Assembly: GCF_011947285.1 (NCBI RefSeq)
Contig: NZ_JAAOZT010000010.1
Coordinates: forward strand, 1 to 64,000
DNA: 64,000 bases
Direction: 5' to 3'
Source: Glaciimonas immobilis
Lineage (GTDB): Bacteria; Pseudomonadota; Gammaproteobacteria; Burkholderiales; Burkholderiaceae_D
A program made the translations under genes and the position numbers. Below the pieces are notes generated by a model. The model made no database searches. It worked only from the letters and a program-made list of their open reading frames with translations, and was not told the DNA's origin. Below, one piece after another: positions 28,664 through 47,758 of the stretch (within the stretch, counting starts at the first letter, position 1; each line of letters starts with the position of its first letter).

Positions 28664-28741
28664 TTTGTTCGCGTTGGAAAAAGTCGTAGTCACATTCTCT
28701 TTGTGCCGATACGTATGTTTAAAGTTCAATAACCCTGGGCA

Positions 28742-28852
28742 GGACTTACGCAAAACCGTCCCCGCAACGAGCTTGTCAATCCTGCCGACCAAGACAGTAC
28801 GCAAGTACGGCTAGGGAAGCACTACGCGGCTGGGGGAACTTTGCGTAAGTCC
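28742..28852 (+). repeat. Dispersed element with terminal inverted repeats, copy 2
   Basis: 111 bp bounded by perfect 13-bp inverted repeats GGACTTACGCAAA (28742-28754) and TTTGCGTAAGTCC (28840-28852). The interior includes ACCGTCCCCGCAACGAGC and GACAGTACGCAAGTACGG. It is the best-preserved of the three copies. It lies between the GntR gene and the BMP gene, 10 bp from the end of the latter, and has no coding capacity of its own. Confidence 0.93.
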
Positions 28853-28861
28853 AAGTTATAT

Positions 28862-29947: not shown

Positions 29948-30167
29948 CGTGAACTCCTTTTACGTGAATCCGGTTTCCGTATGCTGACTTGCGGAGAACC
30001 GGACAAAAAGCTGCTCAGGCAAATAAAAAACCTGTCGCAGGATCGATTGTCAGGGTTAAAGTGCGCTCAAAAGCCGCATAGTTTTTAGGACTACTTTGGC
30101 TTCTTCGCGCGCTTTAGCTAATTTATAGCCAACTGACGCCCGCTCGTTGCAAATTGCAAACGGGTTC

Positions 30168-31004
30168 TTAGAAGTGGTATTCGGCCCGGATCATTGGCGT
30201 TTTTGCTAAAGAACCGCGCACAGTTGATGGTGTGCCGAACTTGTTGCGCCAGTATTGGTATTCAACACCAACGCGCAAAGTGTTTTTACCCATTCCCATT
30301 GGCGTGCCGAGGTCGTACATGACTTGACCATCAAAATTCAATTCCGGCGCTGTGCCGCCACCGTATTCATTGGTGCCCTTGGCTGCGATGTAATTCACAT
30401 ATCCTTCGAACGCGAATCCGGTCGAAGCAATTGGGAGTCCCCAGGCTGCGCTCAACATAGGATGCAGATCGTAGGTGTAACGGCTGGAGATGCCAACTGG
30501 CTGATTGCTTTCCTGTATTAACAGCAAACTGATGTTAAGGAAACCTGGCACGTCCATCATCAACGTAGGTCCCAATACCAGCATACGTTTTTTGGAAGCA
30601 TAACCAGGATCGTTCTTAGTGTTCCAATCAAAACCGGCAGTGACGCCCAGGCCGCGAACGGGGCCGAAGGACAGGTTTTTGCCTGAAACTTTGCCCAGAT
30701 CAAGTGTGTTGCGATAGACGATATAGGCTTCTTGCGCGTTACTATCCTTGCTGTTGGATTGCAATAGATCGACGTTGAAAAAGTTAGTACCATATTTGTA
30801 ACCGCTGGCATGGGTCAGATTGATGATGCTTTTTGCGATGCCGGTACCGACGTACGGCTCAGCAAATTGCGTACCGTAGCGATAGCCGATCGATGTGTCG
30901 CTCCATTCTGCTGCGCTGGCGTGTTGAACACTGACCAACGCCGCTGCCACTGTCAACGCATTGACCGCCAATTTACCCATTTTCATTGCTGCTTGCTTTG
31001 CCAT
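30168..31004 (-). CDS. Tsx-like nucleoside-specific outer-membrane channel
   Basis: 278 residues from the ATG at 31004 (M-A-K-Q-A-A-M-K-M-G-K); nine upstream codons in frame lack a ribosome site. The signal peptide ends S-A-A (about residue 32). The mature part begins E-W-S-D-T-S-I-G-Y-R-Y-G-T-Q-F-A-E-P, like the Tsx family, and alternating beta strands run to a terminal A-E-Y-H-F with the C-terminal Phe needed for outer-membrane assembly. It should pass nucleosides into the periplasm for the BMP protein encoded just downstream. It is divergent from the transporter ATPase gene. Confidence 0.85.
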   Translation of the reverse strand: MAKQAAMKMGKLAVNALTVAAALVSVQHASAAEWSDTSIGYRYGTQFAEPYVGTGIAKSIINLTHASGYKYGTNFFNVDLLQSNSKDSNAQEAYIVYRNTLDLGKVSGKNLSFGPVRGLGVTAGFDWNTKNDPGYASKKRMLVLGPTLMMDVPGFLNISLLLIQESNQPVGISSRYTYDLHPMLSAAWGLPIASTGFAFEGYVNYIAAKGTNEYGGGTAPELNFDGQVMYDLGTPMGMGKNTLRVGVEYQYWRNKFGTPSTVRGSLAKTPMIRAEYHF

Positions 31005-31359
31005 TTTTTTTCCAGAAGTGTTGATAACCAAAAAAGGAATTAAGGAGCCCCGTTTCTCCTCATTGCGATAATGCGTGTGAGATTGCAGCGTTAAATCAAA
31101 CTGCTGATGTCTATAATTTTATTGCCAGCAATTCTTGTGCCAATTGTAGACAATCGTTGCTCATAGTAGAAAATTGTTTATGCATATACGGTATCAATTC
31201 CTTATGATGAGTATCGGTGCAGAAATTATGCATATTTGCCTTATTTTGGTCAGTAGCCCGGAGATTTGCACTATTGCGGTGCGTAAACTATTGCGAAGTC
31301 GGATGGAGGTGCAAAGTTATGTGACACTTTTCGTCAAAATATTGCCGTCAATTAGCGAC

Positions 31360-31377
31360 AATTTTGTCGACAAAATT
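31360..31377. promoter_or_regulatory. 18-bp perfect palindrome in the porin-transporter divergent region
   Basis: AATTTTGTCGACAAAATT is a perfect palindrome. It lies in the 590-bp gap between the Tsx-like gene and the ABC ATPase gene, 356 bp from the former and 217 bp from the latter. A second TGTCGAC occurs at 31462-31468, and ATTGT-AG-ACAAT at 31143-31154. It is a candidate operator for a GntR-type repressor; the partner is inferred. The rest of the gap holds no credible gene. Confidence 0.5.
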
Positions 31378-31593
31378 AAATTAATTTTGATCATCCTCTC
31401 GATTTAACCAACGATGAAGAATTTATTTTTCAGGGAAGAAATTCGCTTGGCAGAGATCGACTGTCGACGGCGTTTCTCTCCCAGGGAATAACTCTCTTTG
31501 ACCGTACTGGCATGACAATTGCAGGTCTCCTATGTGCGCGTAGACGCGGAACAAGCTGCTGACCGCTTTTTAATATTTTTACGGATTATTCCA

Positions 31594-33204
31594 ATGGACC
31601 AACTGCCGGTTTATTTTGATTTGCCGCCACGCCTGGTCTTGACCGGCATCACCAAGCGGTATCCTTCCGTCGTTGCTAACGACGACATCGGCCTAAGTGT
31701 GCGACCCGGTGAGATTCATGCCCTGTTAGGTGAGAACGGCGCGGGCAAAAGCACGCTCATGAAGATCGTCTATGGCGTGACCAAGCCGGATGAGGGCAGC
31801 ATTTTATGGGAGGGTCGTTACCTTGATATCGCCAGCCCGTCGCAGGCGCGGCGGTTAGGTATCGGCATGGTGTTCCAGCATTTCTCATTGTTCGAGACAT
31901 TGACCGTCGCTGAGAATATTGCTCTGGCGCTAGACGGGCAAATGGCGCCGCCGTTGTTGGCAGCGCGGATTACCGAAGTCTCAGAAAAATACGGTCTGCC
32001 GATTGATCCGCATCGATTGGTCCACAGCATGTCGGTGGGTGAGCGCCAGCGCGTTGAAATCGTGCGGTGTCTGTTGCAGGAACCAAAGTTGCTGATTATG
32101 GATGAGCCGACATCGGTGCTGACGCCGCAAGCGGTGCTGGTCTTGTTCGCTACCTTGCGTCAGCTGGCGGCGGAAGGCTGCAGCATTCTTTATATTAGTC
32201 ACAAACTTGATGAGATTCGGGCTTTGTGCGACACGGCCACCGTCTTGCGCGGCGGACGTGTCAGCGGCACTGCTACGCCAAAAAATGAAACCAACGATAG
32301 TCTTGCGCGCATGATGATTGGCGGCGAGCTGGCTGAATGCCATTTGACGCCGCAAGCCACCGGAGAAGTCCGACTGGCGCTGGATCAGCTATCGCTCGGG
32401 ACCATCGATCCGTTTGGAACCACGCTCAAGGCCATTAGTCTGGCCGTAAAAAGCGGCGAAATACTGGGCATCGCGGGCGTATCCGGCAACGGCCAGAAAG
32501 AATTGCTGGCAGCGCTCTCGGGCGAAAGTCTCAGTCCACAAGGTCCGATGATTACGTTAATGGGCGAACAGGTCGGCCATTTACATCCGGCCCAGCGGCG
32601 CAGACTCGGTTTGACCTTTGTGCCGGAAGAACGGCTGGGACGTGGCGCAGTACCCGCCATGAGCCTCGCCCAAAATGTATTATTGACAGGCGCCCGTCAT
32701 GGCCTGGTACGCAAAGGCCTGATGCAACACGGTGCCATACGTCAGTTTGCGCGCGATGTGATAACGCGTTTCGGCGTCAAATGCGGTGACGAACAATCGG
32801 TGGCGTCCAGTCTGTCTGGCGGCAATCTGCAAAAATTTATTGTCGGTCGCGAGACCATGCTGAATCCCAAAATGATGATCATTGCGCAGCCGACATGGGG
32901 CGTGGATGTCGGGGCGGCACAACTGATTCGGCAGGCACTGATAGATTTGCGTCTGCAAGGCGTGGCGTTGTTGGTGATTTCGGAAGAGCTTGAAGAACTG
33001 TTCACCATCAGCGACCGCATTTGCGTATTGGCCGCCGGTCGGTTATCGCCAGCGGTACGACTCGCCGACACCAATATTGAGCAGATCGGTAACTGGATGA
33101 GCGGCAATTTTGACGGTCTGCCGCCGGATTCCGGCACTGATCGCTATGCCTCACATCAACTGAACAAACAGATTAAACAGGAGAGTCATCTTGCTCAAAC
33201 TTGA
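31594..33204 (+). CDS. Nucleoside-type ABC transporter ATPase (two fused NBDs)
   Basis: 536 residues from the ATG at 31594 (M-D-Q-L-P-V-Y-F-D); 25 earlier in-frame codons are unlike the family. There are two ABC domains. The first has Walker A G-E-N-G-A-G-K-S-T, signature S-V-G-E-R-Q-R-V-E and Walker B L-L-I-M-D-E-P-T-S-V-L. The second has a degenerate Walker A (G-V-S-G-N-G-Q-K-E-L) and signature L-S-G-G-N-L-Q-K. This asymmetric pair is typical of the BMP/ribose importer ATPases (NupO, YufO, RbsA). It overlaps the next permease gene by 14 bp. Confidence 0.93.
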   Translation: MDQLPVYFDLPPRLVLTGITKRYPSVVANDDIGLSVRPGEIHALLGENGAGKSTLMKIVYGVTKPDEGSILWEGRYLDIASPSQARRLGIGMVFQHFSLFETLTVAENIALALDGQMAPPLLAARITEVSEKYGLPIDPHRLVHSMSVGERQRVEIVRCLLQEPKLLIMDEPTSVLTPQAVLVLFATLRQLAAEGCSILYISHKLDEIRALCDTATVLRGGRVSGTATPKNETNDSLARMMIGGELAECHLTPQATGEVRLALDQLSLGTIDPFGTTLKAISLAVKSGEILGIAGVSGNGQKELLAALSGESLSPQGPMITLMGEQVGHLHPAQRRRLGLTFVPEERLGRGAVPAMSLAQNVLLTGARHGLVRKGLMQHGAIRQFARDVITRFGVKCGDEQSVASSLSGGNLQKFIVGRETMLNPKMMIIAQPTWGVDVGAAQLIRQALIDLRLQGVALLVISEELEELFTISDRICVLAAGRLSPAVRLADTNIEQIGNWMSGNFDGLPPDSGTDRYASHQLNKQIKQESHLAQT

Positions 33205-34291
33205 ACGGCGGGCGGATCCGTCGCCGCTGATGCGCGTTGCCTCACCGTTGATCGCGGCGGCGGCCATGCTGCTAACCGGGATTATCATCTTTACCATTCT
33301 TGGCAAGGATCCAGAACAAGCGTTTTATGTTTTTTTTATTAAACCGCTGACCACCTTGTATGGCGTTGGTGAATGGCTGCTGAAGGCCACGCCTTTGCTG
33401 TTATGCGCACTAGGATTGGCGCTAGGTTTTCGTGCCAATGTCTGGAATATTGGTGCCGAAGGCCAGCTCACCATGGGCGCGATTGCTGGCGGCGGCGTCG
33501 CGTTATGGCTCGGTGACAGCACCGCAATCTGGGTCTTGCCGCTGATGTTTGTCGCGGGTGCGTTGGGTGGCATGGCATGGGCGGCGATTCCTGCCTTCCT
33601 GCGCAACCGGTTTAATACCAGTGAAATTTTGGTTACCCTCATGCTGGTCTACATCGCCCAATTGCTTCTGTCGTATCTGGTGCATGGTCCGTGGCGCGAT
33701 CCGATGGGCTTTAATTTTCCGCAATCCAAAACTTTCAGCGACGCCCACCTGGTGCCGCTGTTAATCGAAGGTGCGCGCACTAATTGGGGCTTCGTCCTAG
33801 GGTTGCTACTGGCCGTTGCTTCCTGGTTGTTCTCTAGCAAAACCTTCGCCGGTTACCGCATGCAGGTCGCCGGTCTCGCACCAGCTGCCGCAGCCTACGC
33901 GGGATTCTCCAACAAACGCAATGTGTGGGTGGCACTGCTCATCAGCGGTGGCACCGCAGGACTCGCCGGACTATGCGAAGTAGCAGGCCCCATCGGACAG
34001 TTGCAAGCGCAAATTTCTCCCGGATACGGTTTTGCGGCCATCATCGTCGCGTGGATCGGACGCCTGCATCCGGTCGGTATCGTGCTCGGCGCGCTCCTGA
34101 TGTCGCTGTTATATCTGGGTGGAGAATCGGCCCAGATGCAAATGGCCCTGCCATCCGCCATCACCGGCTTGTTTCAGGGATTGCTGCTGTTTTATTTGCT
34201 GGCGGCTGATTTGTTCATCACTTTCCGTCTAAAAAATGTGCATGTTGTTCGCTCACAGGCCTCTGTCGCAGTCATCAAGGAAGCCGTATGA
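33191..34291 (+). CDS. ABC transporter permease (nucleoside type, first)
   Basis: 366 residues starting at a TTG (33191) with GGAGAG upstream, overlapping the ATPase gene by 14 bp. It is a BPD_transp_2-type permease with about nine hydrophobic helices. Motifs include A-L-G-L-A-L-G-F-R-A-N-V-W-N-I-G-A-E-G-Q (about 78-97), the NIGAEGQ mark of YufP/NupP-like proteins, and N-T-S-E-I-L-V-T-L-M-L-V-Y. The stop overlaps the second permease start (ATGA). It should import nucleosides or a related ligand with the adjacent subunits. Confidence 0.93.
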   Translation: MLKLERRADPSPLMRVASPLIAAAAMLLTGIIIFTILGKDPEQAFYVFFIKPLTTLYGVGEWLLKATPLLLCALGLALGFRANVWNIGAEGQLTMGAIAGGGVALWLGDSTAIWVLPLMFVAGALGGMAWAAIPAFLRNRFNTSEILVTLMLVYIAQLLLSYLVHGPWRDPMGFNFPQSKTFSDAHLVPLLIEGARTNWGFVLGLLLAVASWLFSSKTFAGYRMQVAGLAPAAAAYAGFSNKRNVWVALLISGGTAGLAGLCEVAGPIGQLQAQISPGYGFAAIIVAWIGRLHPVGIVLGALLMSLLYLGGESAQMQMALPSAITGLFQGLLLFYLLAADLFITFRLKNVHVVRSQASVAVIKEAV

Positions 34292-35217
34292 ATGCCGCCA
34301 GCCCGATCCTGCCCATCATCACCAGTACGGTAATTGCTGCCACGCCGTTGATTTACGCCGCAATCGGTGAAACCGTCGTTGAAAAAGCAGGCGTCCTCAA
34401 TCTCGGTATCGAAGGCATGATGCTGGTCGGTGCCGTCGCCGGATTCGCCGCCGCATTGACGACCGGCAGCGCCACCGCTGGCTTTGTCGCCGCCGCTGCC
34501 GCAGGCGTCGCGATGTCGCTGATTTTTGCTTTTCTCACGCTTACCATGCAAGCCAATCAGGTTGCTACCGGGTTAGCACTCACGCTATTCGGCATCGGCT
34601 TGTCAGCGTTCCTCGGCCATGATCTGGCTGGCACGCCGATTCAGGGTTTGAAAGGCATCGATATCCCGGTTTTGTCGCAGTTACCAGTGCTTGGTCAGTT
34701 ATTGTTCCACTATGACGTGATGGTCTATCTTTCACTCGTGCTGTGCGCGTCGGTATACTGGTTTTTGACCAAAAGCCATGCAGGATTAAAAATGCGCGCA
34801 GTAGGCGAATCCCCGACCGTCGCGCATGCCATCGGTCATCCTGTGATTTTTATTCGCTATCTGGCAGTGATGTTTGGCGGCGCAACCGCAGGCATGGCGG
34901 GTGCTTATCTTTCCATCGTGCAGACCCCAATGTGGGTGGAAGGCATGACCGCGGGCAAAGGCTGGATTGCGTTGGCGCTGGTAGTGTTCGGCACCTGGAA
35001 ACCTTTGCGCGTGGTCTGCGGCGCATACCTGTTCGGCGGCGTCACAGTGCTGCAGTTATACGCACAAGGTTTTGGATTGGGCATTCCGTCGGAACTGTTG
35101 TCGATGCTGCCGTACATCGCGACCATAGTGGTGCTGGTGATTATTTGCCGCGATCCGAAGACTATTCTGCTGAATCAGCCGGTGTCGCTGGGGCGGAGTT
35201 TTCATCCTGATGCTTGA
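34288..35217 (+). CDS. ABC transporter permease (nucleoside type, second)
   Basis: 309 residues beginning in a 4-bp overlap with the previous permease. It has A-T-P-L-I-Y-A-A-I-G-E-T-V-V-E-K-A-G-V-L-N-L-G-I-E-G-M-M-L (about 18-46), the signature of the YufQ/NupQ branch of BPD_transp_2 permeases, then G-E-S-P-T-V-A-H-A-I-G and G-K-G-W-I-A-L-A-L-V-V-F-G-T-W. It forms the transmembrane pore with its 366-residue partner. The operon appears to end here or continue into the aldose epimerase gene 109 bp later. Confidence 0.93.
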   Translation: MNAASPILPIITSTVIAATPLIYAAIGETVVEKAGVLNLGIEGMMLVGAVAGFAAALTTGSATAGFVAAAAAGVAMSLIFAFLTLTMQANQVATGLALTLFGIGLSAFLGHDLAGTPIQGLKGIDIPVLSQLPVLGQLLFHYDVMVYLSLVLCASVYWFLTKSHAGLKMRAVGESPTVAHAIGHPVIFIRYLAVMFGGATAGMAGAYLSIVQTPMWVEGMTAGKGWIALALVVFGTWKPLRVVCGAYLFGGVTVLQLYAQGFGLGIPSELLSMLPYIATIVVLVIICRDPKTILLNQPVSLGRSFHPDA

Positions 35218-35326
35218 TGAAATTTTGTGGTCTGTCGTGCATGAGGCGTGAACCACAATTGTTTGGAAATGGCATTAAATTTTCTTTGGTACAAAATGGC
35301 AACGATGTCTGGATCGGAGATAATGG

Positions 35327-36418
35327 ATGTTCGATGGCATATTCATCAGAACACCTCAATTAATTCCAAACATGATCCAACTCCCTGTTTCCAGTACCAA
35401 AACCGCTACCGGCGAGATTCTATATACGCTGCGCAATGCCAGCGATATGCGCGTTGTTATCAGTAATCGCGGCGGCACGCTGATCTCGTGGCATGCGCCG
35501 GACCGTTACGGTCGCATCGCGGATGTCTTGCTCGGCTATCCGGACACCAAAGGTTATGTCACCAACCTACCATTTTTCGGTGGCCTGATCGGGCGGTGGG
35601 CTAACCGGATAGCTGATGGGCACTTCATGCTTGATGGTGCCGATTTTTTGGTGGACCGGAATAATGGCACCAATCATTTACACGGGGGTGACGCTGGGTT
35701 TCATCTGGCGCTATGGGACGTGCATGTTGACAATAATGGCTTGCGGTTGCGGCACACTTCTAAAGACGGTGAAGCCGGTTTTCCCGGTAATCTTCAGGTT
35801 GAGGTGCGCTATCGGCTTGACGAGGAGGGTGAACTCACCATCGATTATCAGGCGATCACGGATGCACCGACACCAGTCAACCTGACGTCGCATGCCTACT
35901 TCAATCTCAATGGCGGGTGTAGCGATATCAGCGATCATATGCTCTCAATTGATGCAGATTATTTTCTCAAGGTGGACCAAAGATTGATCCCGACGGAACG
36001 CGCGGAGGTCGCGGGCAGCACCTTTGATTTTCGCCAGCCTTCGCTTATCGGTCCCCGCCTGGCGTCGTCCGATGCGCAACTTGGATTGGCAGGTGGGTTT
36101 GATCATTGCTACTGCCTGCATTGGAATGAAGGAATGATGCACGGCGCATTGCGCGAGGTCGCACAGGTGTACGATCCTGGCTCGGGACGTGCGTTAACCG
36201 TCGCCACCACCGAAACCGGTCTGCAATTTTATAGCGGTAATTTTCTGGATGGCGTCGTAGGGCGTGGCGCACAACCGTATGCGGTGCATGATGGTTTTTG
36301 CCTTGAGGCGCAGGCCTTTCCGGATCAGATCAACGGCCCCGATGCCGAAGCGGTGATATTGCGCCCCGGTCAAATCTACCGGCAAACAACGGTGTATAGA
36401 TTAAGCGTACGGGATTGA
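35327..36418 (+). CDS. galM: Aldose 1-epimerase
   Basis: 363 residues from the ATG at 35327, behind GGAGATAATG; an internal ATG at 35372 would remove 15 residues and lacks a ribosome site. It has the beta-sandwich mutarotase fold, with N-R-I-A-D-G, N-H-L-H-G-G (His near 104-106), T-S-H-A-Y-F-N-L-N-G (His about 183) and F-C-L-E-A-Q-A-F-P-D-Q (catalytic Glu about 326). It interconverts alpha and beta forms of free sugars. Its position after the transporter permeases suggests that a sugar, perhaps ribose freed from nucleosides, is processed. That link is inferred from position only. Confidence 0.92.
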   Translation: MFDGIFIRTPQLIPNMIQLPVSSTKTATGEILYTLRNASDMRVVISNRGGTLISWHAPDRYGRIADVLLGYPDTKGYVTNLPFFGGLIGRWANRIADGHFMLDGADFLVDRNNGTNHLHGGDAGFHLALWDVHVDNNGLRLRHTSKDGEAGFPGNLQVEVRYRLDEEGELTIDYQAITDAPTPVNLTSHAYFNLNGGCSDISDHMLSIDADYFLKVDQRLIPTERAEVAGSTFDFRQPSLIGPRLASSDAQLGLAGGFDHCYCLHWNEGMMHGALREVAQVYDPGSGRALTVATTETGLQFYSGNFLDGVVGRGAQPYAVHDGFCLEAQAFPDQINGPDAEAVILRPGQIYRQTTVYRLSVRD

Positions 36419-38109: not shown

Positions 38110-38426
38110 TTGTATCCCGTCGAGTGTTTAAATGCCTCAAGTGATTCTTGAGGAGTTAGGATATTAACGACGGCAGCAATGATAGCGTTGACGTTCATTA
38201 CAACCCGTTACAATGTATCGGTCAGGCGCGGAATGATTTTATATCGCCGGTTTATTCGATTCACAATAAACACTGCTATTTGGCCCCCATTACACAAAGC
38301 GAACATTTATCATCTACGTAGTTGTTCCCAGAACATTCAAGAATATGTCAGGCCCAGACCGGAGTAGCCGAGTTCGGCCTAACGCCTAAAGACGCATTTG
38401 CGTCAACCACGCCAGGAGAGCAATCT
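38110..38426. other. Divergent intergenic region upstream of the dehydrogenase
   Basis: About 315 bp between the small exported protein gene and the tartrate/D-malate dehydrogenase. It should contain both promoters. The open frame of the dehydrogenase extends 35 codons into it without family similarity. No TGGTAT/ATACCA box like those of the apionate locus was found here. Confidence 0.5.
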
Positions 38427-39524
38427 ATGAACACCACATACAAAATCGCCGTTCTTGCAGGCGATGGCATCGGTAAAGAAGTCATGCCGGAAGGCTTACG
38501 CGTTGTTACGGCTGCCGCAAAGCGGTTTGGCATTACGCTGGAATTCACCGAATTTGGGTGGGCCAGTTGCGATTATTATGCGCAAACCGGCAACATGATG
38601 CCTACCGACTGGAAGGCGCAATTATCGGGCATGGACGCCATTTACTTCGGTGCGGTGGGCTGGCCCGACATCGTCCCCGATCATATTTCACTATGGGGTT
38701 CGTTGTTAAAGTTTCGACGCGAATTTGACCAATATATTAACTTGCGCCCGGCGCAGACATTTGAAGGCGTTCGCAGTCCGCTGGCCGATCGTGGTGCCGG
38801 TCCCATCGACATGATGATCGTGCGTGAGAACACTGAAGGCGAATACTCATCGGTCGGCGGTATCATGTATGAGGGCACGCCTAACGAAATCGTGATGCAG
38901 CAGTCAATATTTTCTCGTCGCGGTAGTGATCGTGTACTGAAATTTGCGTTCGAACTGGCAAAAACCCGTGCGCGCAAACACGTCACGGTCGCCACCAAAA
39001 GCAACGGTATCTCAATCTCCATGCCTTGGTGGGACGCGCGCGCTGCCGAGATGGCCGGTCAGTATCCGGAGATCACCTGGGACAAGCAGCACATCGATAT
39101 TCTTTGCGCCCGTTTTGTATTGCAGCCACAACGATTTGACGTGGTAGTAGCGTCGAATTTGTTCGGCGACATTCTGTCCGACCTCGGCCCGGCATGTACT
39201 GGCACAATCGGCCTGGCACCCTCCGCAAACATGAATCCGGAGCGCGATTTTCCTTCGCTGTTTGAGCCAGTGCACGGCTCGGCACCGGATATCTACGGCA
39301 AGAACATCGCCAATCCGATCGCCATGATCTGGTCTGGTGCGATGATGCTCGATTTCCTCGGTGGTAACGACAGTGACGGACAATGCCGGTTAGCCCACGA
39401 CGCCATCGTGGCTGCGATCAAATCCACGCTGGCGACCGGGCCGCATACCGCCGATATGGGCGGCAATGCATCCACGACTGAGATTGGCGTAGCTATCGCA
39501 GCGCTGGTCACCGACGCCGCGTAA
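38427..39524 (+). CDS. Tartrate / D-malate dehydrogenase (decarboxylating)
   Basis: 365 residues from the ATG at 38427, preceded by CCAGGAGAG at good spacing. It belongs to the NAD-dependent isopropylmalate/isocitrate dehydrogenase fold; the 365-residue length and Y-K-I-A-V-L-A-G-D-G-I-G-K-E-V start fit the TtuC/DmlA branch rather than LeuB. Metal-binding aspartates lie in S-N-L-F-G-D-I-L-S-D-L-G-P (about 250-262) and the NAD loop is H-G-S-A-P-D-I-Y-G-K-N-I-A-N-P (about 290). Substrates of the branch are meso- or L-tartrate and D-malate, giving glycerate or pyruvate. It precedes the OprB porin on the same strand and faces the apionate operon. Confidence 0.9.
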   Translation: MNTTYKIAVLAGDGIGKEVMPEGLRVVTAAAKRFGITLEFTEFGWASCDYYAQTGNMMPTDWKAQLSGMDAIYFGAVGWPDIVPDHISLWGSLLKFRREFDQYINLRPAQTFEGVRSPLADRGAGPIDMMIVRENTEGEYSSVGGIMYEGTPNEIVMQQSIFSRRGSDRVLKFAFELAKTRARKHVTVATKSNGISISMPWWDARAAEMAGQYPEITWDKQHIDILCARFVLQPQRFDVVVASNLFGDILSDLGPACTGTIGLAPSANMNPERDFPSLFEPVHGSAPDIYGKNIANPIAMIWSGAMMLDFLGGNDSDGQCRLAHDAIVAAIKSTLATGPHTADMGGNASTTEIGVAIAALVTDAA

Positions 39525-39957
39525 TCCAGGCCCCGCCTCGCTTGACCAGAATGTCGGTTTGGGTATGGCGGCGGCGGGCCGCTCCCAGCTAATCCTTAGC
39601 TAGCGATGACATGACGCGTACGCGGCGGCTAAGGCGCTAAGTGCCCGCTCGGTGCGACTGCGCCAGAACCTTGCATCATATTGCGACGTTCTCCTGATGT
39701 TCATCTTAAGTTGCACCGGGCTTCCCCCTAAAAATACTAACGCTTCGCCGCCGTACATCTTTGTCGGTATCGAATCACCGAATGCGCTTGCCCGGCTTGC
39801 CTATGCAAGCGACAGGGACATTTGTAGCATGAAGATGCTACGCCATTATGTCGTTGTCGTGACGCAACAATATCCGCACATGCGTGGTTTTGAGCCGCCT
39901 GCTTCCTTGACTAAAAAAATAGCGAGCAATAAACTCGCCCTGTTTCCTGGAGGCCCC
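39525..39957. other. Intergenic region before the OprB porin
   Basis: About 430 bp between the dehydrogenase stop and the porin start. The porin reading frame is open through most of it, but the ribosome site (CTGGAGGCC) and signal peptide place the start at 39958. No hairpin with a T-run or known motif was seen. Confidence 0.5.
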
Positions 39958-41313
39958 ATGTTTATAAATAAAAAGAATGTCATCGGCTTCATGCTGGCGC
40001 AGCTAATTGCTATTCCATTGCTGACAAAGGCACAGGAGGAGCCAGTCGTAGTTGCGCAGGAATCCGAAAAAATCATTCCCGCCGAGACGTGGAACGCAAA
40101 ATTTCAATCGACCTACATCTGGCAACGCAAGCCTTCGTTCGATGCCCCCTATAGTGGCGCGAATAGCCTTTTGCCGCAGCGTGAAAAAGCCTATTCCTTG
40201 ACCGCCACTGCGTATTTTGGGGTGCGGCTTTGGGGCGGTGCGGAGTTGTATTTCAATCCAGAAATGGTCCAGGCCGTGCCGCTATCCGGCTTGCACGGCT
40301 TAGGTGGCATGACCAATAGCGAGCAGCAAAAAACTAGCGGTCCCAACCCAAAATTCTACCGTGCGCGCTTGTTTTTGCGTCAGACATTCGATTTCGGTGG
40401 TGGCGCAGATCCGGTGGAATCCGGCCAGAATCAACTGGCGGGTATGGTCGATAAACGGCGGCTGGTATTCACACTTGGTAACGTGAGCGTGACAGACATT
40501 TTTGATAACAACGCCTATGCGCATGACGCCCGGACGCAGTTTGTGAATTGGTCGTTTTTAACTTACGGTGCCTATGATTATGCTGGCGACGCGCGCGGTT
40601 ATACGTGGGGCGGGGCGGTCGAATATTATTACGATGAGTGGGCGTTCCGCTATGGTCGATTTATGGTGCCGATCATGTCGAACGGTCAGCCTTTGGAAAC
40701 CCGCTTAGCAAATTTCTATGGCGATCAAGTGGAGCTGGAACGTGGCTACACGCTAGCGAATCAATCCGGAAAAATACGTTTTCTGGTATTCCGCAACAAA
40801 GAAAACATGGGAAGTTTTAGCGATGCGAACGCCGCAGCGAACGGTGGTATTCCCTCGGTCGCTGCCGTGCGCAAAGATAGTTTCAAGGTCGGTTACGGTG
40901 TAAGTCTGGAGCACGCTCTGCGCTCTGATATCGGACTATTTGCCCGGGCCAGTCGCAACGATGGCAAGACCGAAACCTATTCTTTTACCGAGATCGAACG
41001 TTCGGTGACCGCTGGCGTAGCAATCAAAGGCGAGCAATGGGGACGCTCCAAAGATACTGTCGGTCTGGCCGTGGCGCAGAACGGACTAAGCAAAGCGCAC
41101 CGCGATTATTTGTCTTCAGGCGGCCTTGGCGCTTTTATTGGCGACGGGCAACTGAATTACAAACCCGAAAAAATTGTCGAGATGTACTACAACATCCATC
41201 TCATCCAAGACACTTATTTGATGTTCGATTATCAACGTATTGCTAACCCGGCGTATAACGCTGATCGCGGTCCAGTCAACGTGGCAACGGTACGGTTGCA
41301 CGCTGAGTTTTAA
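39958..41313 (+). CDS. OprB-family carbohydrate-selective porin
   Basis: 451 residues from the ATG at 39958 (M-F-I-N-K-K-N-V), behind TGGAGG. The signal peptide ends T-K-A-Q (about 25). The mature sequence has the OprB pattern: W-N-A-K-F-Q-S-T-Y-I-W-Q then G-G-A-E-L-Y-F-N-P-E, F-T-L-G-N-V-S-V-T-D-I-F-D-N-N and W-S-F-L-T-Y-G-A-Y-D-Y. The barrel strands end in R-L-H-A-E-F with the terminal Phe. It would let sugars or sugar acids across the outer membrane. Convergent with the GntR gene of the apionate operon, it may supply that pathway, but this is from position only. Confidence 0.87.
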   Translation: MFINKKNVIGFMLAQLIAIPLLTKAQEEPVVVAQESEKIIPAETWNAKFQSTYIWQRKPSFDAPYSGANSLLPQREKAYSLTATAYFGVRLWGGAELYFNPEMVQAVPLSGLHGLGGMTNSEQQKTSGPNPKFYRARLFLRQTFDFGGGADPVESGQNQLAGMVDKRRLVFTLGNVSVTDIFDNNAYAHDARTQFVNWSFLTYGAYDYAGDARGYTWGGAVEYYYDEWAFRYGRFMVPIMSNGQPLETRLANFYGDQVELERGYTLANQSGKIRFLVFRNKENMGSFSDANAAANGGIPSVAAVRKDSFKVGYGVSLEHALRSDIGLFARASRNDGKTETYSFTEIERSVTAGVAIKGEQWGRSKDTVGLAVAQNGLSKAHRDYLSSGGLGAFIGDGQLNYKPEKIVEMYYNIHLIQDTYLMFDYQRIANPAYNADRGPVNVATVRLHAEF

Positions 41314-41372: not shown

Positions 41373-42080
41373 TTAACTTTGCACGAAGCGTCGATAAAGT
41401 TCGTTTGCACGGTTGAGGTGGCTATGCATTGCCTCGGCAGCGGCATCGCCGTCATGTGCAGCAATTGCGTCGATGATGCGCTGGTGTTCGGATAGTGTTA
41501 GTTCTTCTGCTCCTGGCGCACGCACCATGGTTTGATAATATTCGCGTGCCCAGCCGAACATGGATTCGACGATTGCAGGGAAGATAGGATTCCCGCTGAT
41601 CGCCGCAATCTCGCAGTGAAATTCCATGTCGCGATCAATGAATTCCTCCAGATTGACCATCGAGGCGCGATGCTGAACTATTTTAAGTCGAAGTCGTGCA
41701 ACCTGTTCATCGGTCGCCCGCTCGGCGGCCAATCTGGCGGTGCCGGTCTCCAGAAAGATGCGTGCTTCTTTGAGATGTTGCAGCATGTCCGGTTGTGTAC
41801 GCAATAAATGCATCGCGCCACCAGCAATCTGCCCGATCAATTGTTCGGCCGTCGGCACCACTACTCTGGCCCGCTCACCGTGGGCGATTTCGACGATACC
41901 CGAGCGCTCCATTGCTTGCAGCGCCTCCCGCACGGCTGGTCGTCCCACGCCGTACAGTTCCATCAATTCGCGCTCCGAAGGTAAATGCGCCCCTAGCGGA
42001 ATAGACCCGGAACGAATCCGTTCCATCAGACGATCCAGGACTTCGTGATAGAGCTTGCGGCGAGGAATGATTTCGGTCAT
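41373..42080 (-). CDS. GntR/FadR-family (FCD) regulator of the apionate operon
   Basis: 235 residues. The N-terminal winged helix (L-Y-H-E-V-L-D-R-L-M-E-R-I, L-P-S-E-R-E-L-M-E-L-Y-G-V-G-R-P-A-V-R-E-A-L) is followed by an FCD domain (about 90-230) with the D-x-x-F-H metal motif D-M-E-F-H and a later H-x3-H-type histidine. The family represses catabolic genes until a sugar acid is bound. It is downstream of and probably co-transcribed with oiaK (157 bp gap). Its own promoter region contains a doubled GGTAT box matched before the MFS gene, suggesting self-regulation and control of the operon. Confidence 0.88.
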   Translation of the reverse strand: MTEIIPRRKLYHEVLDRLMERIRSGSIPLGAHLPSERELMELYGVGRPAVREALQAMERSGIVEIAHGERARVVVPTAEQLIGQIAGGAMHLLRTQPDMLQHLKEARIFLETGTARLAAERATDEQVARLRLKIVQHRASMVNLEEFIDRDMEFHCEIAAISGNPIFPAIVESMFGWAREYYQTMVRAPGAEELTLSEHQRIIDAIAAHDGDAAAEAMHSHLNRANELYRRFVQS

Positions 42081-42135
42081 GGAGGGCGTGAAGGCGACGT
42101 AAAGAAAAAGAGGACAAGCAAAGTGAGGTGCTGAC

Positions 42136-42148
42136 TATACCATACCAG
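42136..42148 (-). promoter_or_regulatory. Candidate GntR operator before the regulator gene
   Basis: On the minus strand this reads CTGGTATGGTATA, two overlapping TGGTAT boxes, 56 bp upstream of the regulator start. The same TGGTAT box occurs as an inverted pair at 47490-47508 before the MFS gene. FadR-type GntR proteins often bind TGGTAT/ATACCA half-sites. Confidence 0.5.
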
Positions 42149-42236
42149 TCTGGCGCTCCTACGATGACGTAGTCTTATGCTGGTTACGGTTTATGCAAAT
42201 ATGCGCACTACATCAGTCTTAGGATTCACTTTATTC

Positions 42237-43631
42237 TTAGGTATTTATCGGCCTTCCCGCCACCACCTCCCCAAAGAACCCGTCACCGCCGATTTGCCCA
42301 CCCTTCAGCACAATCTGTAATCCGTCCCGGCGTGGATTATCCGACCAGACGCGGCATAACGGCGCGCCCGGTGCCAAACCAGCGATCACACTGAGCGCGC
42401 TGATGTCGAGTGCGCTGGCGACTTCGCCCGAACTGTCGCCACCTGCTACGACGATGCGTTGCAAATCTGCCTGATCGAGCAAACGCCGCATGACCTCGGC
42501 CAGCGCGGTGCCTACCGAGCGCGCAGCGTCAGCGCGACTTAGCTTGGCTGTGGCTGCCATTGCGTCAAAACCCAGTACGCTGGCATCGTTAGGTCCTTCG
42601 GCGCTATAGACGACAGCGCTGATACCGCGTTGTATTGCGGCGCTGGCGCTGTCTACTACGCGATTGATTTCCGCATCGCGCATGCTCGGATTAAGAGCGC
42701 GATCCAGCACCAGCCGTTCGGTATGAAACCCGTTTTCACGGGCCCAGCGAATTTGTCCCGCCGTAACGGGGGAGCAACTGCCGCTCACCACCGCTATCGC
42801 CGCTACGCTTTCTGCCGTGGGCAAACCGGCCTGTTGCGGCAGCAATCCCAGCGCACGCCAATACGCGGCAAGTGCGTACTGCAAACCGGAGGATGAAGCG
42901 CTGAAAACACCTTCGCCGCGTTGCTCCCACAGCAGGCGTCCTGCGGCGAGCAAGGTTGCGTCATCCAGGACGTCAATCAGCACGACAGGTGTGTCGGCAC
43001 CCGCACGCGTACTTAATACTGCATCAGCGGTTTCACTGCCTTGCTGCAATACCACCATATCGATCAATGCGATACGGCGTGCGGTTTGCTGGCCCAAGTG
43101 CAGGCGCAAATCGGCTTCGCCCATCGGCGTGACAGGGTGATGCGCCATTGTGGGATGGCGGTCCAGCCGATGGCCGACGCCATCTACGGCAGCAAACAAA
43201 TTGCCGAAAACCTGATAGCGTTTTAAACGCGGTGCGCCGACAATCATGGGAGACCAAAGACCGGGCATATGCCGTACGCCGAGATCGATCGCACAACCGA
43301 TTGATCCGGTTTCGGCCGAAGAATCGAAGGTTGAGCATACTTTGTATTGCAGAATCGGTGCGCCCAACGCCGCCAGACGCGCAAAAAGGGCCGGTAAATG
43401 CTCCTTCATCCATGCCGGACTGCGACCGCGGGAAGAACCGGCCAATCCGATGCAACGCACGTCTGGAAACCGCGCCAGCATCGCTGCGGTAGGCGGTGTC
43501 AGAAACAGCACGGTCGGTACGCCAGCGGCGGTCATCGCCTCCATCGCATCGGTTGATCCGGTGAAATCATCGCCGTAGTAGGCCAGTAGCAAGCCATCGG
43601 GCCATGCGGTGGAGGGTGCAGAAATCGTCAT
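42237..43631 (-). CDS. oiaK: DUF1537 four-carbon acid-sugar kinase, likely 3-oxo-isoapionate kinase
   Basis: 464 residues of the four-carbon acid-sugar kinase family (N- and C-terminal DUF1537/SBD-NBD domains). The N-terminal Y-Y-G-D-D-F-T-G-S-T-D-A-M-E (about 18-31) is the substrate-binding signature. The C-terminal nucleotide domain has V-V-A-G-G-D-S-S-G-E-V-A-S-A-L (about 393-407) and G-L-A-P-G-A-P-L. Members phosphorylate C4-C5 sugar acids with ATP. Sitting in a 4-bp overlap with a RuBisCO-like gene and near an apnO-like gene, it matches the kinase that makes 3-oxo-isoapionate 4-phosphate. The substrate is inferred from that neighbourhood. Confidence 0.85.
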   Translation of the reverse strand: MTISAPSTAWPDGLLLAYYGDDFTGSTDAMEAMTAAGVPTVLFLTPPTAAMLARFPDVRCIGLAGSSRGRSPAWMKEHLPALFARLAALGAPILQYKVCSTFDSSAETGSIGCAIDLGVRHMPGLWSPMIVGAPRLKRYQVFGNLFAAVDGVGHRLDRHPTMAHHPVTPMGEADLRLHLGQQTARRIALIDMVVLQQGSETADAVLSTRAGADTPVVLIDVLDDATLLAAGRLLWEQRGEGVFSASSSGLQYALAAYWRALGLLPQQAGLPTAESVAAIAVVSGSCSPVTAGQIRWARENGFHTERLVLDRALNPSMRDAEINRVVDSASAAIQRGISAVVYSAEGPNDASVLGFDAMAATAKLSRADAARSVGTALAEVMRRLLDQADLQRIVVAGGDSSGEVASALDISALSVIAGLAPGAPLCRVWSDNPRRDGLQIVLKGGQIGGDGFFGEVVAGRPINT

Positions 43632-44872
43632 TGCCAGAATCCCAGTGCCTCGCGCAAGGCCGGACTACGTTCCGCCTGTTGTGTCAGTGGGACGCCTGCG
43701 ATTGCAGCAACCCACGCTTCGCGCAGCGCAGCAACGCCTGCCGCGACACCGCTTGGATGACCAAAAATCCCGCCGCCTGCGGTATGGATCAGATCGGCAC
43801 AACCAAGTGCCGCATAGGTATCGGCAGCTTGCAAGCCGGTTTGGCCGGAACTGAATACCGGCATCGCGATCATTGGTGCGCTGGCCATAACGGGCGTTAG
43901 CACCGAGCGCGCTGCGGCGATGACGCTTTCATCCGACTCGCTGAATTTGTTGCGCAGGCCGTTGACATGCAAATGATCGGCACCGGCAAGACGCCAGATT
44001 TTTTGCCACGGCGCGAAGTCCCAGCCCAATTGCGGCGAGCGGCTCAAATAGCCCCATCCAGCCCGATGGGCGTGGATCGGCAATTGCGAATGACGGCGCA
44101 GTTCGCGCAAACCAACCAGTCCGACCGAGTTCAGACACACCATGACGCAGGTGCCGCCCTCGGCTAAGACCAAATCATGCCGCCGCCGCATCTCGTCCAG
44201 ATCGCCGGTTAGATTGAATGCGACCATGGCTTTTTTGCCAGTGCGTTCAGCATTGTCGTTGACCACGCGCATCACGGCGCGTACACGTTCGTCGAAAGGA
44301 CAATAGGTGCCGTCGGCCTGCAACTCATCATCTTTAATAAAATCAATGCCGCCGGTCACCAGCTCATGCACGTGATGCGCAGTCTCAGCGACAGACAGAC
44401 CAACGCTAGGCTTGATAATGGTGCCGATCAACGGGCCGTTTTGAACGTTGGTCAGTTTGCGGGTGCCTTCGATCCCAAACGCCGGGCCCGGATAAGCGGT
44501 ACCGAACGCGGACGGCAGTTCAAGATCAGTCAGCCGCAGGCCCGATACCTGACGTAATTCAAAAAGATTGCCAGCAATCGTGGACATCAAATTGGGTAAC
44601 GATGGCCCGATATTTTCTAACGGCCATGACAGTTCAAGCTTGCAACGACTGTAGGTGTTGGATGTCATGCCTCCGGCCAGACTTGGCGCGGCCACTACGT
44701 CCAGCACCTCAAGCTTTTCTACCCGCGCGCCCGAGCGTGCTTTTAGCGCGGGGGTTTCGGACGGCAGCGCGATAAACGTGCCGCTAGATTGTTCACCGGC
44801 GATCACCTCTGCCGCACGGGCGGGATCGTCTCCTGTTTCTAGCCAGTAACTGGCATATATCCGCTCACCCAC
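43628..44872 (-). CDS. RuBisCO-like protein, likely 3-oxo-isoapionate-4-phosphate lyase
   Basis: 414 residues of the RuBisCO large-subunit superfamily. Catalytic sites are largely retained: K154 in I-I-K-P-S-V-G, K180-D181-D182-E183 in D-F-I-K-D-D-E-L (carbamylated Lys and metal ligands), His in H-A-H-R-A-G-W-G (267-274), S-S-G at 341-343, and the phosphate loop G-G-G-I-F-G-H-P (366-373). Loop 6 reads N-G-L-R-N-K-F instead of G-K-L-E-G, so it is not a carboxylase. In D-apiose pathways RuBisCO-like proteins decarboxylate 3-oxo-isoapionate 4-phosphate, or cleave it to 3-phosphoglycerate plus glycolate. The start is ATG at 44872. The stop overlaps the kinase start. Confidence 0.9.
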   Translation of the reverse strand: MGERIYASYWLETGDDPARAAEVIAGEQSSGTFIALPSETPALKARSGARVEKLEVLDVVAAPSLAGGMTSNTYSRCKLELSWPLENIGPSLPNLMSTIAGNLFELRQVSGLRLTDLELPSAFGTAYPGPAFGIEGTRKLTNVQNGPLIGTIIKPSVGLSVAETAHHVHELVTGGIDFIKDDELQADGTYCPFDERVRAVMRVVNDNAERTGKKAMVAFNLTGDLDEMRRRHDLVLAEGGTCVMVCLNSVGLVGLRELRRHSQLPIHAHRAGWGYLSRSPQLGWDFAPWQKIWRLAGADHLHVNGLRNKFSESDESVIAAARSVLTPVMASAPMIAMPVFSSGQTGLQAADTYAALGCADLIHTAGGGIFGHPSGVAAGVAALREAWVAAIAGVPLTQQAERSPALREALGFWQ

Positions 44873-44888
44873 TTTTGTTCCTTTAATC

Positions 44889-44988
44889 GGACTCCCGCAA
44901 AGTCGCCCCCACTGCGTTGTGCTTTCCTAGTCGTACTAGCGTACTGCCTTCGTCGGCACGCCTTGCTGGGACGAGTTTGCGGAAGTCC
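44889..44988 (-). repeat. Dispersed element with terminal inverted repeats, copy 3
   Basis: 100 bp with ends GGACTCCCGCAAA (44889-44901) and TTTGCGGAAGTCC (44976-44988), an inverted pair with one mismatch. The interior is the reverse complement of copies 1 and 2. It lies in the 250-bp gap between apnO and the RuBisCO-like gene, 17 bp from the start codon of the latter, thus inside the operon leader. Confidence 0.88.
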
Positions 44989-45121
44989 TTTGTTCATTAG
45001 GCGCTGTAACCCGCTCGATTTGCGTCAGCCTGTATTTATCGCGACCATTCGTGCGATCCAATTATCGCGTGCAATCGCATGAATGGTGCACAACATTTAC
45101 TTCTTAAACTTATTTTACTGC

Positions 45122-45952
45122 TTACGTAATCCGACGAATACTTTCGCTGATTTCATCGCGGTCAAATACTTTTAGCCAGTCATCGCGCATCAGGCGGGGT
45201 TTGCCGAATTCGATTGCTTTGTTGCAGGCGTCTGAGAAAGCACCGGGGATTTCGTTGAAAATGACGGCGCCCAGGATGTTCATATGGCCTAGTAGAAAGT
45301 CGCGTGCGGCTTCTTTTGGGACACCGCGGCGGACGGTTTCGTCCATCGCGTCGCGCATCACTGACAGCAACGTGGCGCAGATGGTTTCGGACAGGCCAGG
45401 CTCTAATATCGCCATCTGGTCTACTGTCAGACGATATGATCGCATGATCGGGGCGTAGATGACTTTCGCTACTGCTTCGCCGAGGTCGAAGGCTTCTTCC
45501 GGGCCTTGCATTAGCGCGCTGGTGATGGATTGTTTGGCCGCAGCGCCGCCAAAGTAGTCACGTCGGGCTTCTTCTGTCGTCTCATCGTTATAGATCGGCG
45601 GATGGCAAGGGTGCGCAACAAAGTAGGTCAGATCCGGTCGCACTGGCAGATGGCCGGCAAACGGTGCCGCCGCGTCAAGCGTCATGACCATGACGCCGGG
45701 GCGCAATTTAGGGGCAATCTCGGTGGCAATCTTGCCGATTAATGTGTCCGGGACGGCCAGGATGACGACATCGACATTATCCAACGCCGAGTCAACACTG
45801 ACGCAATCGATGCCCAGTTCGTCCTTCAATCGCTTTTGTCCGGCAGCACCGACTTCGACGTGCGAGACTTGATAGTCGGACGACTGCAAGTTCTTAGCCA
45901 GACGCACACCCATTTTGCCGCCAGCACCGAAAAGCGCGATTCTTTCGTTCAT
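45122..45952 (-). CDS. apnO: D-apionate oxidoisomerase-like dehydrogenase
   Basis: 276 residues from the ATG at 45952 (M-N-E-R-I-A-L-F-G-A-G-G-K-M-G), placed 6 nt after TTGGAG; four further in-frame codons are discarded. The N-terminal NAD-binding G-A-G-G-K-M-G loop is followed by a phosphogluconate-dehydrogenase-type C-terminal domain. F-V-A-H-P-C-H-P-P-I-Y-N-D-E (about 110-123) is a family hallmark, as is R-D-Y-F-G-G. The D-apionate oxidoisomerase ApnO oxidises D-apionate with NAD and moves a hydroxymethyl group to give 3-oxo-isoapionate. The adjoining kinase and RuBisCO-like genes supply the next two steps, which supports the call. Confidence 0.82.
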   Translation of the reverse strand: MNERIALFGAGGKMGVRLAKNLQSSDYQVSHVEVGAAGQKRLKDELGIDCVSVDSALDNVDVVILAVPDTLIGKIATEIAPKLRPGVMVMTLDAAAPFAGHLPVRPDLTYFVAHPCHPPIYNDETTEEARRDYFGGAAAKQSITSALMQGPEEAFDLGEAVAKVIYAPIMRSYRLTVDQMAILEPGLSETICATLLSVMRDAMDETVRRGVPKEAARDFLLGHMNILGAVIFNEIPGAFSDACNKAIEFGKPRLMRDDWLKVFDRDEISESIRRIT

Positions 45953-46055
45953 GATTAACTCCAATTTGGTTAAATATAATAAGGTCGAAGTAGAGCGAGA
46001 GTGTTGCCTGGGGACTACTTCACGAGTACCGGAGACTTTAATTCCGTATTTATGC

Positions 46056-47393
46056 TTAAGCCTTATGCATGCCGATAGGGTTGTTTTTAACAGCTGGTTT
46101 AGCCAACGTAGTGAGCGAGAAGGCGAGCACCGCCGATAGCAGCATCAATGCGCCAACGATGAACATGGGAGCCTGATATGAGCCGGTAGCGTCCTTTACC
46201 GCGCCGGTAACATACGGTGCGGCGAAACCCGCGATGTTGCCGATAGTATTAATCAGTGCGATCCCGGCAGCAGCACCAGCACCGGACAAAAAGCGTCCGG
46301 GGATGGACCAGAAGGTCGGCAGTGCTGAAAAGATTGCACATGCGGTCACGGTGATGACCGCGATAGTCGCGACCGGGGATTGCATGAACAGGGCGAGCGG
46401 GATACTGATCGCTCCAACCAGCGCCGGCACCCCAACATGCCAGGTTCTGACGCCGCGGCGCGTCGCGTCGCGACTCCACAGAAACAGTGCGGCAGCGGCG
46501 GGAAGGTAAGGCACGGCGGTGATGATGCCTTTTTGGACGACGTTGAATTTGGTCCCGAACTGTCCTTCAAAGCCGCCGATGATGGTCGGCAGGAAGAACG
46601 CCAACGCATATAAACCGTAAATCAGGCCGAAGTAAATTAGCGCCATGACCCATACACGTTTATCCAGCAAGGCTTTAAGAGCAAACGGATTGTGCGAGCC
46701 TTCCTTGTGCTGCTCTTCCTTTGCCAGCTCAGTGGTGAGCCAGTTTTTTTCCGCGGCGTTGAGCCATTTGGCATCCGCGGGTTTGTCGGCCAGATAAAAC
46801 CAGGCAACGATACCGACTGCAATCGCCGGAACACCAACACCGAAGAACATCAGTCGCCAGCCTTCTAGCCCGAACGCGCCATGCGCACTCATCAGCCATG
46901 CAGCTAGTGGCGCGCCGATCACGATGGTGAGCGGCTGCGCCAGATAGAACAGCGAAAGGATGTGGCTGCGATGTTTGGCCGGTACCCATAAGCTGAGAAA
47001 TAGAATCGCGCCCGGGAAAAATCCGGCTTCAGCGATACCCAGCAAAACCCGCAATATATACAGTTCAGGAATACTGCTGACCCAGGTGAACAGCAGCGTG
47101 ACGATGCCCCACGTGACCATGATGCGCGCCAGCCAACGGCGTGCACCAAATTTATAGAGCGCCAGATTGCTAGGAATTTCCAAAAAAATATAGCCGACAA
47201 AAAACACCCCCGCCGCAAAACCAAACTGCGCGGCGGTCAGACCTAAATCTTTGTTCAGTCCGTTAGGACCGGCAAACGAAATCGCGGTGCGGTCCAAAAA
47301 GTTGATAAAAAACATTAACGCTACAAAAGGTACCAGCCGTAGCGATACCTTTCTGATAGCGGATTTTTCGATAGCATTGGTTGCGGTATTCAC
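46056..47393 (-). CDS. MFS sugar-acid transporter (ACS family)
   Basis: 445 residues using the GTG at 47393, which has AAGGAG at ideal spacing; the frame stays open 50 codons upstream but is not hydrophobic or family-like. There are 12 transmembrane helices. The anion:cation symporter (TtuB/ExuT-like) branch is shown by N-F-L-D-R-T-A-I-S-F-A in helix 1, Y-I-F-L-E-I-P-S-N-L, R-V-L-L-G-I-A-E-A-G-F-F-P-G-A-I and W-V-P-A-K-H-R-S. Such carriers take up organic acids and sugar acids with protons. First in the operon, it likely imports D-apionate. A TGGTAT-N7-ATACCA dyad lies about 97 bp upstream of the start. Confidence 0.9.
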   Translation of the reverse strand: MNTATNAIEKSAIRKVSLRLVPFVALMFFINFLDRTAISFAGPNGLNKDLGLTAAQFGFAAGVFFVGYIFLEIPSNLALYKFGARRWLARIMVTWGIVTLLFTWVSSIPELYILRVLLGIAEAGFFPGAILFLSLWVPAKHRSHILSLFYLAQPLTIVIGAPLAAWLMSAHGAFGLEGWRLMFFGVGVPAIAVGIVAWFYLADKPADAKWLNAAEKNWLTTELAKEEQHKEGSHNPFALKALLDKRVWVMALIYFGLIYGLYALAFFLPTIIGGFEGQFGTKFNVVQKGIITAVPYLPAAAALFLWSRDATRRGVRTWHVGVPALVGAISIPLALFMQSPVATIAVITVTACAIFSALPTFWSIPGRFLSGAGAAAGIALINTIGNIAGFAAPYVTGAVKDATGSYQAPMFIVGALMLLSAVLAFSLTTLAKPAVKNNPIGMHKA

Positions 47394-47489
47394 AACTGTC
47401 TCCTTACGTTGATTAATTTTTATTATTTTTAATAGGGGGTATTGGGGCGATATCGTCCGACACGACGATATAAACTCCGGCATCTCAAC

Positions 47490-47508
47490 TGGTATAACGA
47501 GCATACCA
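47490..47508. promoter_or_regulatory. Candidate GntR operator before the MFS gene
   Basis: TGGTAT-AACGAGC-ATACCA, a perfect 6-bp inverted repeat spaced by 7 nt, 97 bp upstream of the GTG start of the MFS gene and 250 bp upstream of the divergent glycosyltransferase. It shares the TGGTAT half-site with the regulator promoter at 42136-42148. The rest of the gap 47394-47758 is AT rich and holds no gene. Confidence 0.55.
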
Positions 47509-47758
47509 CTGTGAATTGAGTTGATACAAGTTATTTTTAGCATGCAGGGTTGCCGCGAGGATGTTCGTAAGGTTTTAAATTGTATTTTTAATATTGATAT
47601 TGGACGTAAGGGGTCAAAAATTTATAAATAATTAACAAAAAGTTGCAGTATCAAGAAAATATTTCTTATGGAAAACTTAAGCCCTTACTTGGTTGAGAAA
47701 AAGGTTGTTGCGGAATGCGCGACCGGACGACTTTGCACTTTCATTGGAATTAATAACT

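Follow-up and report, generated by a model that had tools for sequence, protein, structure and literature searches.

A probable D-apionate breakdown operon with a RuBisCO-like protein of the likely OiaT type in Glaciimonas immobilis

Organisation of the locus

The window, that is, the whole stretch of 64,000 nucleotides from Glaciimonas immobilis that was analysed, carries five adjacent genes on the minus strand between positions 47,393 and 41,373, in the order MFS carrier, apnO, RuBisCO-like protein (RLP), oiaK and GntR regulator. All five reading frames are open, and the products matched Pfam families far beyond chance (MFS_1; PGDH_C; RuBisCO_large; SBD_N and NBD_C of the DUF1537 kinases; GntR with FCD), so that the row of five genes described in an earlier note on this DNA was borne out. 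The MFS frame is open from position 47,543, and the GTG codon at 47,393, which stands behind an AAGGAG motif, is the likelier start, giving a carrier of 445 amino acids (46,056–47,393). The outer edge formerly placed at 47,508 is thus slightly off, since positions 47,490–47,508 are occupied by a palindrome upstream of the MFS gene. The carrier gene is followed by apnO, for the D-apionate oxidoisomerase (45,122–45,952; ATG at 45,952; 276 amino acids), the RLP gene (43,628–44,872; GTG at 44,872; 414 amino acids), oiaK, for the 3-oxo-isoapionate kinase (42,237–43,631; 464 amino acids), whose start overlaps the stop of the RLP gene by 4 bases, and the gene of the GntR/FCD regulator (41,373–42,080; 235 amino acids). 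Judged from sequence comparisons, the assignment of this row as an operon for the breakdown of D-apionate, a sugar acid of plant origin, by an already known pathway is well supported; the analysis adds the choice between the two known RuBisCO-like enzymes, points to a likely site of control, and gives evidence for the handling of the acid rather than the sugar.

Genes for a tartrate dehydrogenase (TIGR02089, above the cut-off) and an OprB porin (Pfam) lie beside the operon at 38,322–41,313. Relatives of both were found in two genomes without the operon, G370 and G372, in neither of which an RLP match was found, and a further genome of the genus, G369, has the DNA that matches the tartrate dehydrogenase gene on a different contig from the operon; the two genes were therefore rejected as operon members and are probably neighbours only. 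The presence of the porin without the operon in G370 and G372 suggests that the unit was probably gained or lost as one piece. Farther away in the window, the region 27,926–36,418 contains a GntR regulator, a Bmp/PnrA-type binding protein, an aldose 1-epimerase and, near the binding protein, an ABC importer (31,519–35,217) whose best-scoring model, that of a putative B6 transporter, was matched under its cut-off.

Enzyme assignments and the predicted pathway

The ApnO protein is 88.4% identical over 276 amino acids to PDB entry 5t57, the sequence of which is 100% identical to a translated locus on plasmid pBB1 of Cupriavidus necator N-1. We take the latter protein to be the characterised D-apionate oxidoisomerase, assayed as ApnO, while the depositors of 5t57 named it “semialdehyde dehydrogenase NAD-binding protein.” No other protein of the window genome than the ApnO of the operon matched PGDH_C, and no ApnO model was matched in NCBIfam. 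The kinase scored 839 bits against the OiaK equivalog model NF042436 (cut-off 700), and the second DUF1537 kinase relative in the genome is a distant one (121 bits). D-apionate, the substrate proposed earlier, accordingly emerged as the best-supported candidate from these comparisons, with the 88% identity of ApnO to 5t57 and the OiaK score above its cut-off, and it gained further support from Paraburkholderia, where genes in this same order adjoin others of the apiose type.

The RLP did not pass the NCBIfam model of the decarboxylase OiaX, scoring 450 bits against a cut-off of 700, and ten of its relatives, including those of Xanthobacter, C. necator and Paraburkholderia graminis, also remained under this cut-off at 410–468 bits, whereas the named OiaX proteins of Sinorhizobium (791 bits) and Rhizobium (780 bits) exceeded it. 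It was 73–75% identical to two Xanthobacter proteins, both from strains other than that of the characterised X. autotrophicus protein, against 44% to the two named OiaX proteins. A quick tree was built from 53 selected rows, several distant ones of which are long-branched and unsure in placement; in it, the window protein and both Xanthobacter rows fell into a clade of 29 rows (SH-aLRT 100) that excluded OiaX. At 14 of 15 catalytic positions, in what we take to be RuBisCO numbering and assigned by motif, the RuBisCO residue is kept (E60, N123, K175, K201, D203, E204, H294, R295, H327, K334, S379, G381, G403 and G404), the sole change being serine for K177. The exact same pattern was present in 77 of 102 aligned rows, one RuBisCO gene being counted twice in this alignment (L005 and L111), while in the two OiaX rows positions 60, 123, 177 and 327 are occupied by D, G, A and Q, and position 379, close to an alignment gap, by G. 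The protein also failed the model of carbon-fixing RuBisCO, NF003252 (230 bits, cut-off 438), and its closest relatives belong to the Oxalobacteraceae and Burkholderiaceae.

PMC6302742, in which the D-apiose study of Carter et al. 2018 is cited, names the RLP of A. radiobacter K84 and that of a Xanthobacter together with their activities; from the word order, we read the second-named activity, that of a transcarboxylase/hydrolase, as belonging to Xanthobacter. The RLP of the operon is thus likely to be of the OiaT type, a 3-oxo-isoapionate-4-phosphate transcarboxylase/hydrolase. The model scores, the identities and the residues call for the “C-C cleavage” that had been ascribed to the unit to be specified as a transcarboxylase/hydrolase reaction and not that of the decarboxylase OiaX. 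The kept cleavage residues fit a RuBisCO-like second half-reaction that would yield 3-phosphoglycerate and glycolate.

The reading that we prefer, with a probability of roughly 0.8, is that of an operon under GntR control that serves growth on D-apionate and has an OiaT-type RuBisCO-like ending. The MFS carrier would import D-apionate, ApnO would oxidise and isomerise it to 3-oxo-isoapionate, and OiaK would phosphorylate the latter, after which the RLP would transfer the carboxyl group via a metal-bound enediolate and then hydrolyse the C–C bond in the fashion of RuBisCO, releasing the two products named above. The regulator would probably repress the operon at the sequence TGGTAT-N7-ATACCA until a pathway compound binds. 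We infer the transport substrate, the course of the reactions in Glaciimonas, the likely end products and the repression; both the order of the reactions and the pair of products are reportedly those of the oxidative D-apiose pathways of Carter et al. (2018; Nat Chem Biol 14:696).

As to the fate of these products, the window genome has a glyoxylate carboligase (1191 bits, cut-off 711), and its best match to a glycolate oxidase subunit (glcD) reached 513 bits, under the cut-off of 567.9. On another contig (C23, 212,000–224,000), a RuBisCO large subunit (793 bits, above the cut-off) lies with CbbX and a divergent CbbR-like regulator that is under its own cut-off; the genome therefore has both a RuBisCO and a RuBisCO-like enzyme.

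D-apionate versus the parent sugar, and rival readings

Like the D-apionate branch of the D-apiose pathways, the locus combines ApnO, OiaK and an RLP for 3-oxo-isoapionate-4-phosphate; unlike those pathways, it is accompanied by no detectable homologue of the apiose dehydrogenase ApsD or the apionolactonase ApnL in the window genome, and by no ribose-type ABC importer in the window. The queries were a Gfo/Idh/MocA dehydrogenase of Paraburkholderia sprentiae and the adjoining 653-amino-acid protein, which are recorded as “Gfo/Idh/MocA family oxidoreductase” and “hypothetical protein” and which, from their position, we take to be ApsD and ApnL. No ApsD was found in the window genome at 1e-40, the best match having 29% identity, and ApnL gave no match in it up to E = 10. 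Among the 32 genomes searched, many of them drafts (the genome of L006 not being part of the set), ApsD (63% or more) and ApnL were both found in five (G369, L007, L010, L027 and L034), and neither was found in 23 of the 24 compact-unit genomes covered (without L032), although one of these 23, L051, has a 38% ApsD relative. The acid-only unit thus recurs. The suggestion that the unit is set up for the acid was strengthened by these genome-wide results, and the window genome is likely to handle D-apionate and not the parent sugar.

The MFS carrier is the likely route of D-apionate uptake, its substrate being deduced from the context; the best NCBIfam model was the D-galactonate transporter TIGR00893 (292 bits, under the cut-off of 395). 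When the P. sprentiae binding protein, DUF2291 protein, ABC ATPase, permease, ApsD and ApnL were compared with the whole window by tblastn, the sole match was one of the ABC ATPase (32%, at 31,633), in agreement with the absence of an apiose dehydrogenase, apionolactonase and apiose ABC importer nearby that had been claimed before. The accompanying idea that the MFS carrier replaces the ABC system is not quite right. Among the best 80 of 569 confirmed loci, 34 had the order MFS-ApnO-RLP-OiaK, and homologues of ApsD or ApnL were in the locus in nine of these and absent from it in 25; the carrier is no simple substitute for an importer, because ABC genes stand in all nine ApsD/ApnL-bearing loci.

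Three other readings have to be weighed. That the same operon ends with a plain OiaX-type decarboxylase, producing a four-carbon keto-sugar phosphate, is improbable: the homology to OiaX is real (the 450 bits mentioned above), the OiaX genes of Rhizobium and Sinorhizobium adjoin a DUF1537 kinase and a NanR-type regulator, and the Rhizobium locus even has an ApnO relative and a one-mismatch palindrome before oiaX, but the score under the OiaX cut-off, the separate clade, the far higher identity to Xanthobacter and the retention of E60, N123 and H327 against D, G and Q in the two OiaX rows all speak against it. ApnO cannot separate the two RuBisCO-like types, because a relative of it (71% to 5t57) also occurs in the OiaX locus L113. 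Still less probable is the degradation of some other branched sugar acid, for example one derived from D-hamamelose. According to PMC8914248, an RLP of Ochrobactrum anthropi carries out the final reaction in the assimilation of hamamelose, for which 3-phosphoglycerate and glycolate are named; this RLP reportedly acts as an oxygenase, a word taken from the title of a paper cited there. Moreover, four pairs of RLP and DUF1537 kinase genes (L114, L116, L117 and L119) had no ApnO match in their stretches, from which it follows that the pair probably serves more than one substrate. Against such a substrate for the Glaciimonas operon stand the close identity of its ApnO to 5t57, the score of OiaK above its own cut-off and the association of the unit with ApsD or ApnL homologues in nine loci among the best 80 of 569.

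The use of D-apiose itself is unlikely, yet it is the most plausible of the three: an unrelated dehydrogenase, for example a periplasmic one, would form apionate or its lactone for import by the MFS carrier. The downstream genes are complete although no ApsD or ApnL homologue was found in the window genome, and the same-genus genome G369 has a gene of the glucose/sorbosone dehydrogenase family beyond the MFS end of its unit, after a ParA-like gene (L106, 16,271–17,452). No such dehydrogenase family was detected among the window reading frames scanned with Pfam, and the genes on the porin side in G369 are not sugar dehydrogenases; three reading frames before the porin (144, 782 and 496 amino acids), once considered for a periplasmic molybdenum dehydrogenase, were assigned by Pfam to DUF2946, TonB receptor and PepSY, and this candidate was dropped.

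The ApnO-free pairs lie near SDR, alcohol dehydrogenase or TRAP genes on replicons of Rhizobium, Azospirillum, Streptomyces and Caballeronia, and possibly belong to other sugar acid pathways. The pair found in Haloarcula (L118), by contrast, is accompanied by a 44% relative of ApnO.

Distribution, candidate operator and significance

The RLP gene was found at 1e-60 in three of 60 related genomes (the window genome among them) and in two of five genomes of the genus; of 369 genomes drawn evenly from the class, four had it (again with the window genome). The loci compared were the best 80 of 569 confirmed in the scan of the genome collection, so that the counts lean to close relatives, and several of them lie on short contigs. 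Within this set, 78 loci have RLP next to OiaK, 69 contain ApnO (70 when 5t57 was the query), and the regulator gene comes next in 27 of the 34 loci with the order MFS-ApnO-RLP-OiaK.

The units of Herbaspirillum and Collimonas (L012, L013, L015, L017–L019, L021–L023 and L025) have the same five genes in the same order with the exact palindrome before the MFS gene, and their genomes, like the window genome, gave no ApsD or ApnL match. The pBB1 locus of C. necator N-1 (L090) shares the MFS carrier (79%), ApnO (88%), RLP (80%), OiaK (65%), a GntR gene and the exact palindrome (tblastn), but its regulator gene, the product of which is 64% identical, stands before the MFS gene and not at the end of the unit. 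Nine loci of Paraburkholderia and Burkholderia (e.g., L027 of P. graminis C4D1M) have the same MFS-ApnO-RLP-OiaK order, with RLPs 80–83% identical, and differ in that an ABC importer and homologues of ApsD and ApnL precede the unit. In the Rhodobacteraceae strain LCG007, for which growth on D-apiose was reported, the cluster, as described in PMC11747546, likewise combines D-apionate oxidoisomerase and 3-oxoisoapionate kinase, and differs in having a 3-oxoisoapionate-4-phosphate decarboxylase (EC 4.1.1.121), apiose dehydrogenase and apionolactonase.

The regulator exceeded the cut-off of the NanR subfamily model NF003011 (314 bits against 260), a membership that does not imply a role in sialic acid metabolism. 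The palindrome TGGTAT-N7-ATACCA (47,490–47,508; TGGTATAACGAGCATACCA as read on the plus strand) lies 96 bases before the likely MFS start, is the only exact copy in the 64 kb and overlaps, by eye, a possible −10 box. Ten mononucleotide shuffles of the window contained no exact copy, and a mean of 0.1 with one mismatch. An unbiased search for short palindromes recovered TGGTA-N9-TACCA and GGTAT-N7-ATACC in 13 of 37 upstream regions, against at most two in 20 trials with shuffled upstream regions; it replaced a first operator pattern, TNGTNNNACNA, which occurred in only 2 of the 37. The exact palindrome precedes the unit in G369, C. necator, Collimonas and nine Herbaspirillum loci, and is kept between widely differing flanks. 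With up to one mismatch it was found in 24 of the best 80 of 569 loci and was absent from 56, some of these copies lying before the GntR gene and some elsewhere, so not always before the MFS gene. The NanR-subfamily regulator probably has its operator in this palindrome, which is thus a testable candidate.

These comparisons place a putative D-apionate operon in a betaproteobacterium and indicate that the two RuBisCO-like endings of the pathway are separable by sequence and residues. That the enzymes specific to apiose are missing again and again suggests that bacteria of soil and those associated with plants have access to D-apionate itself, which is a small, concrete question for the turnover of plant cell-wall carbon. 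A broader interpretation, which we hold tentatively and at somewhat less than even odds, is that the catabolism of free D-apionate without the apiose route is a stable, widespread trait of the Oxalobacteraceae and their neighbours under a conserved NanR-type operator, and that the acid-only unit is a module that moves whole and becomes an apiose pathway once joined to ABC, ApsD and ApnL genes.

The gap between apnO and the RLP gene is 249 bases in the Glaciimonas operon, against 16–125 bases in the Herbaspirillum and Collimonas units. Inside it, at 44,886–44,990, lies a palindromic dispersed repeat of about 100 bases (RNA fold z = −6.1); no Rfam family was matched anywhere in the window at gathering thresholds. 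The repeat has 21 further rows in the window genome and more in G369–G372; the corresponding gap of G369 contains an apparent diverged version, and in one stretch of G372 the copies are spaced about 110 bases apart.
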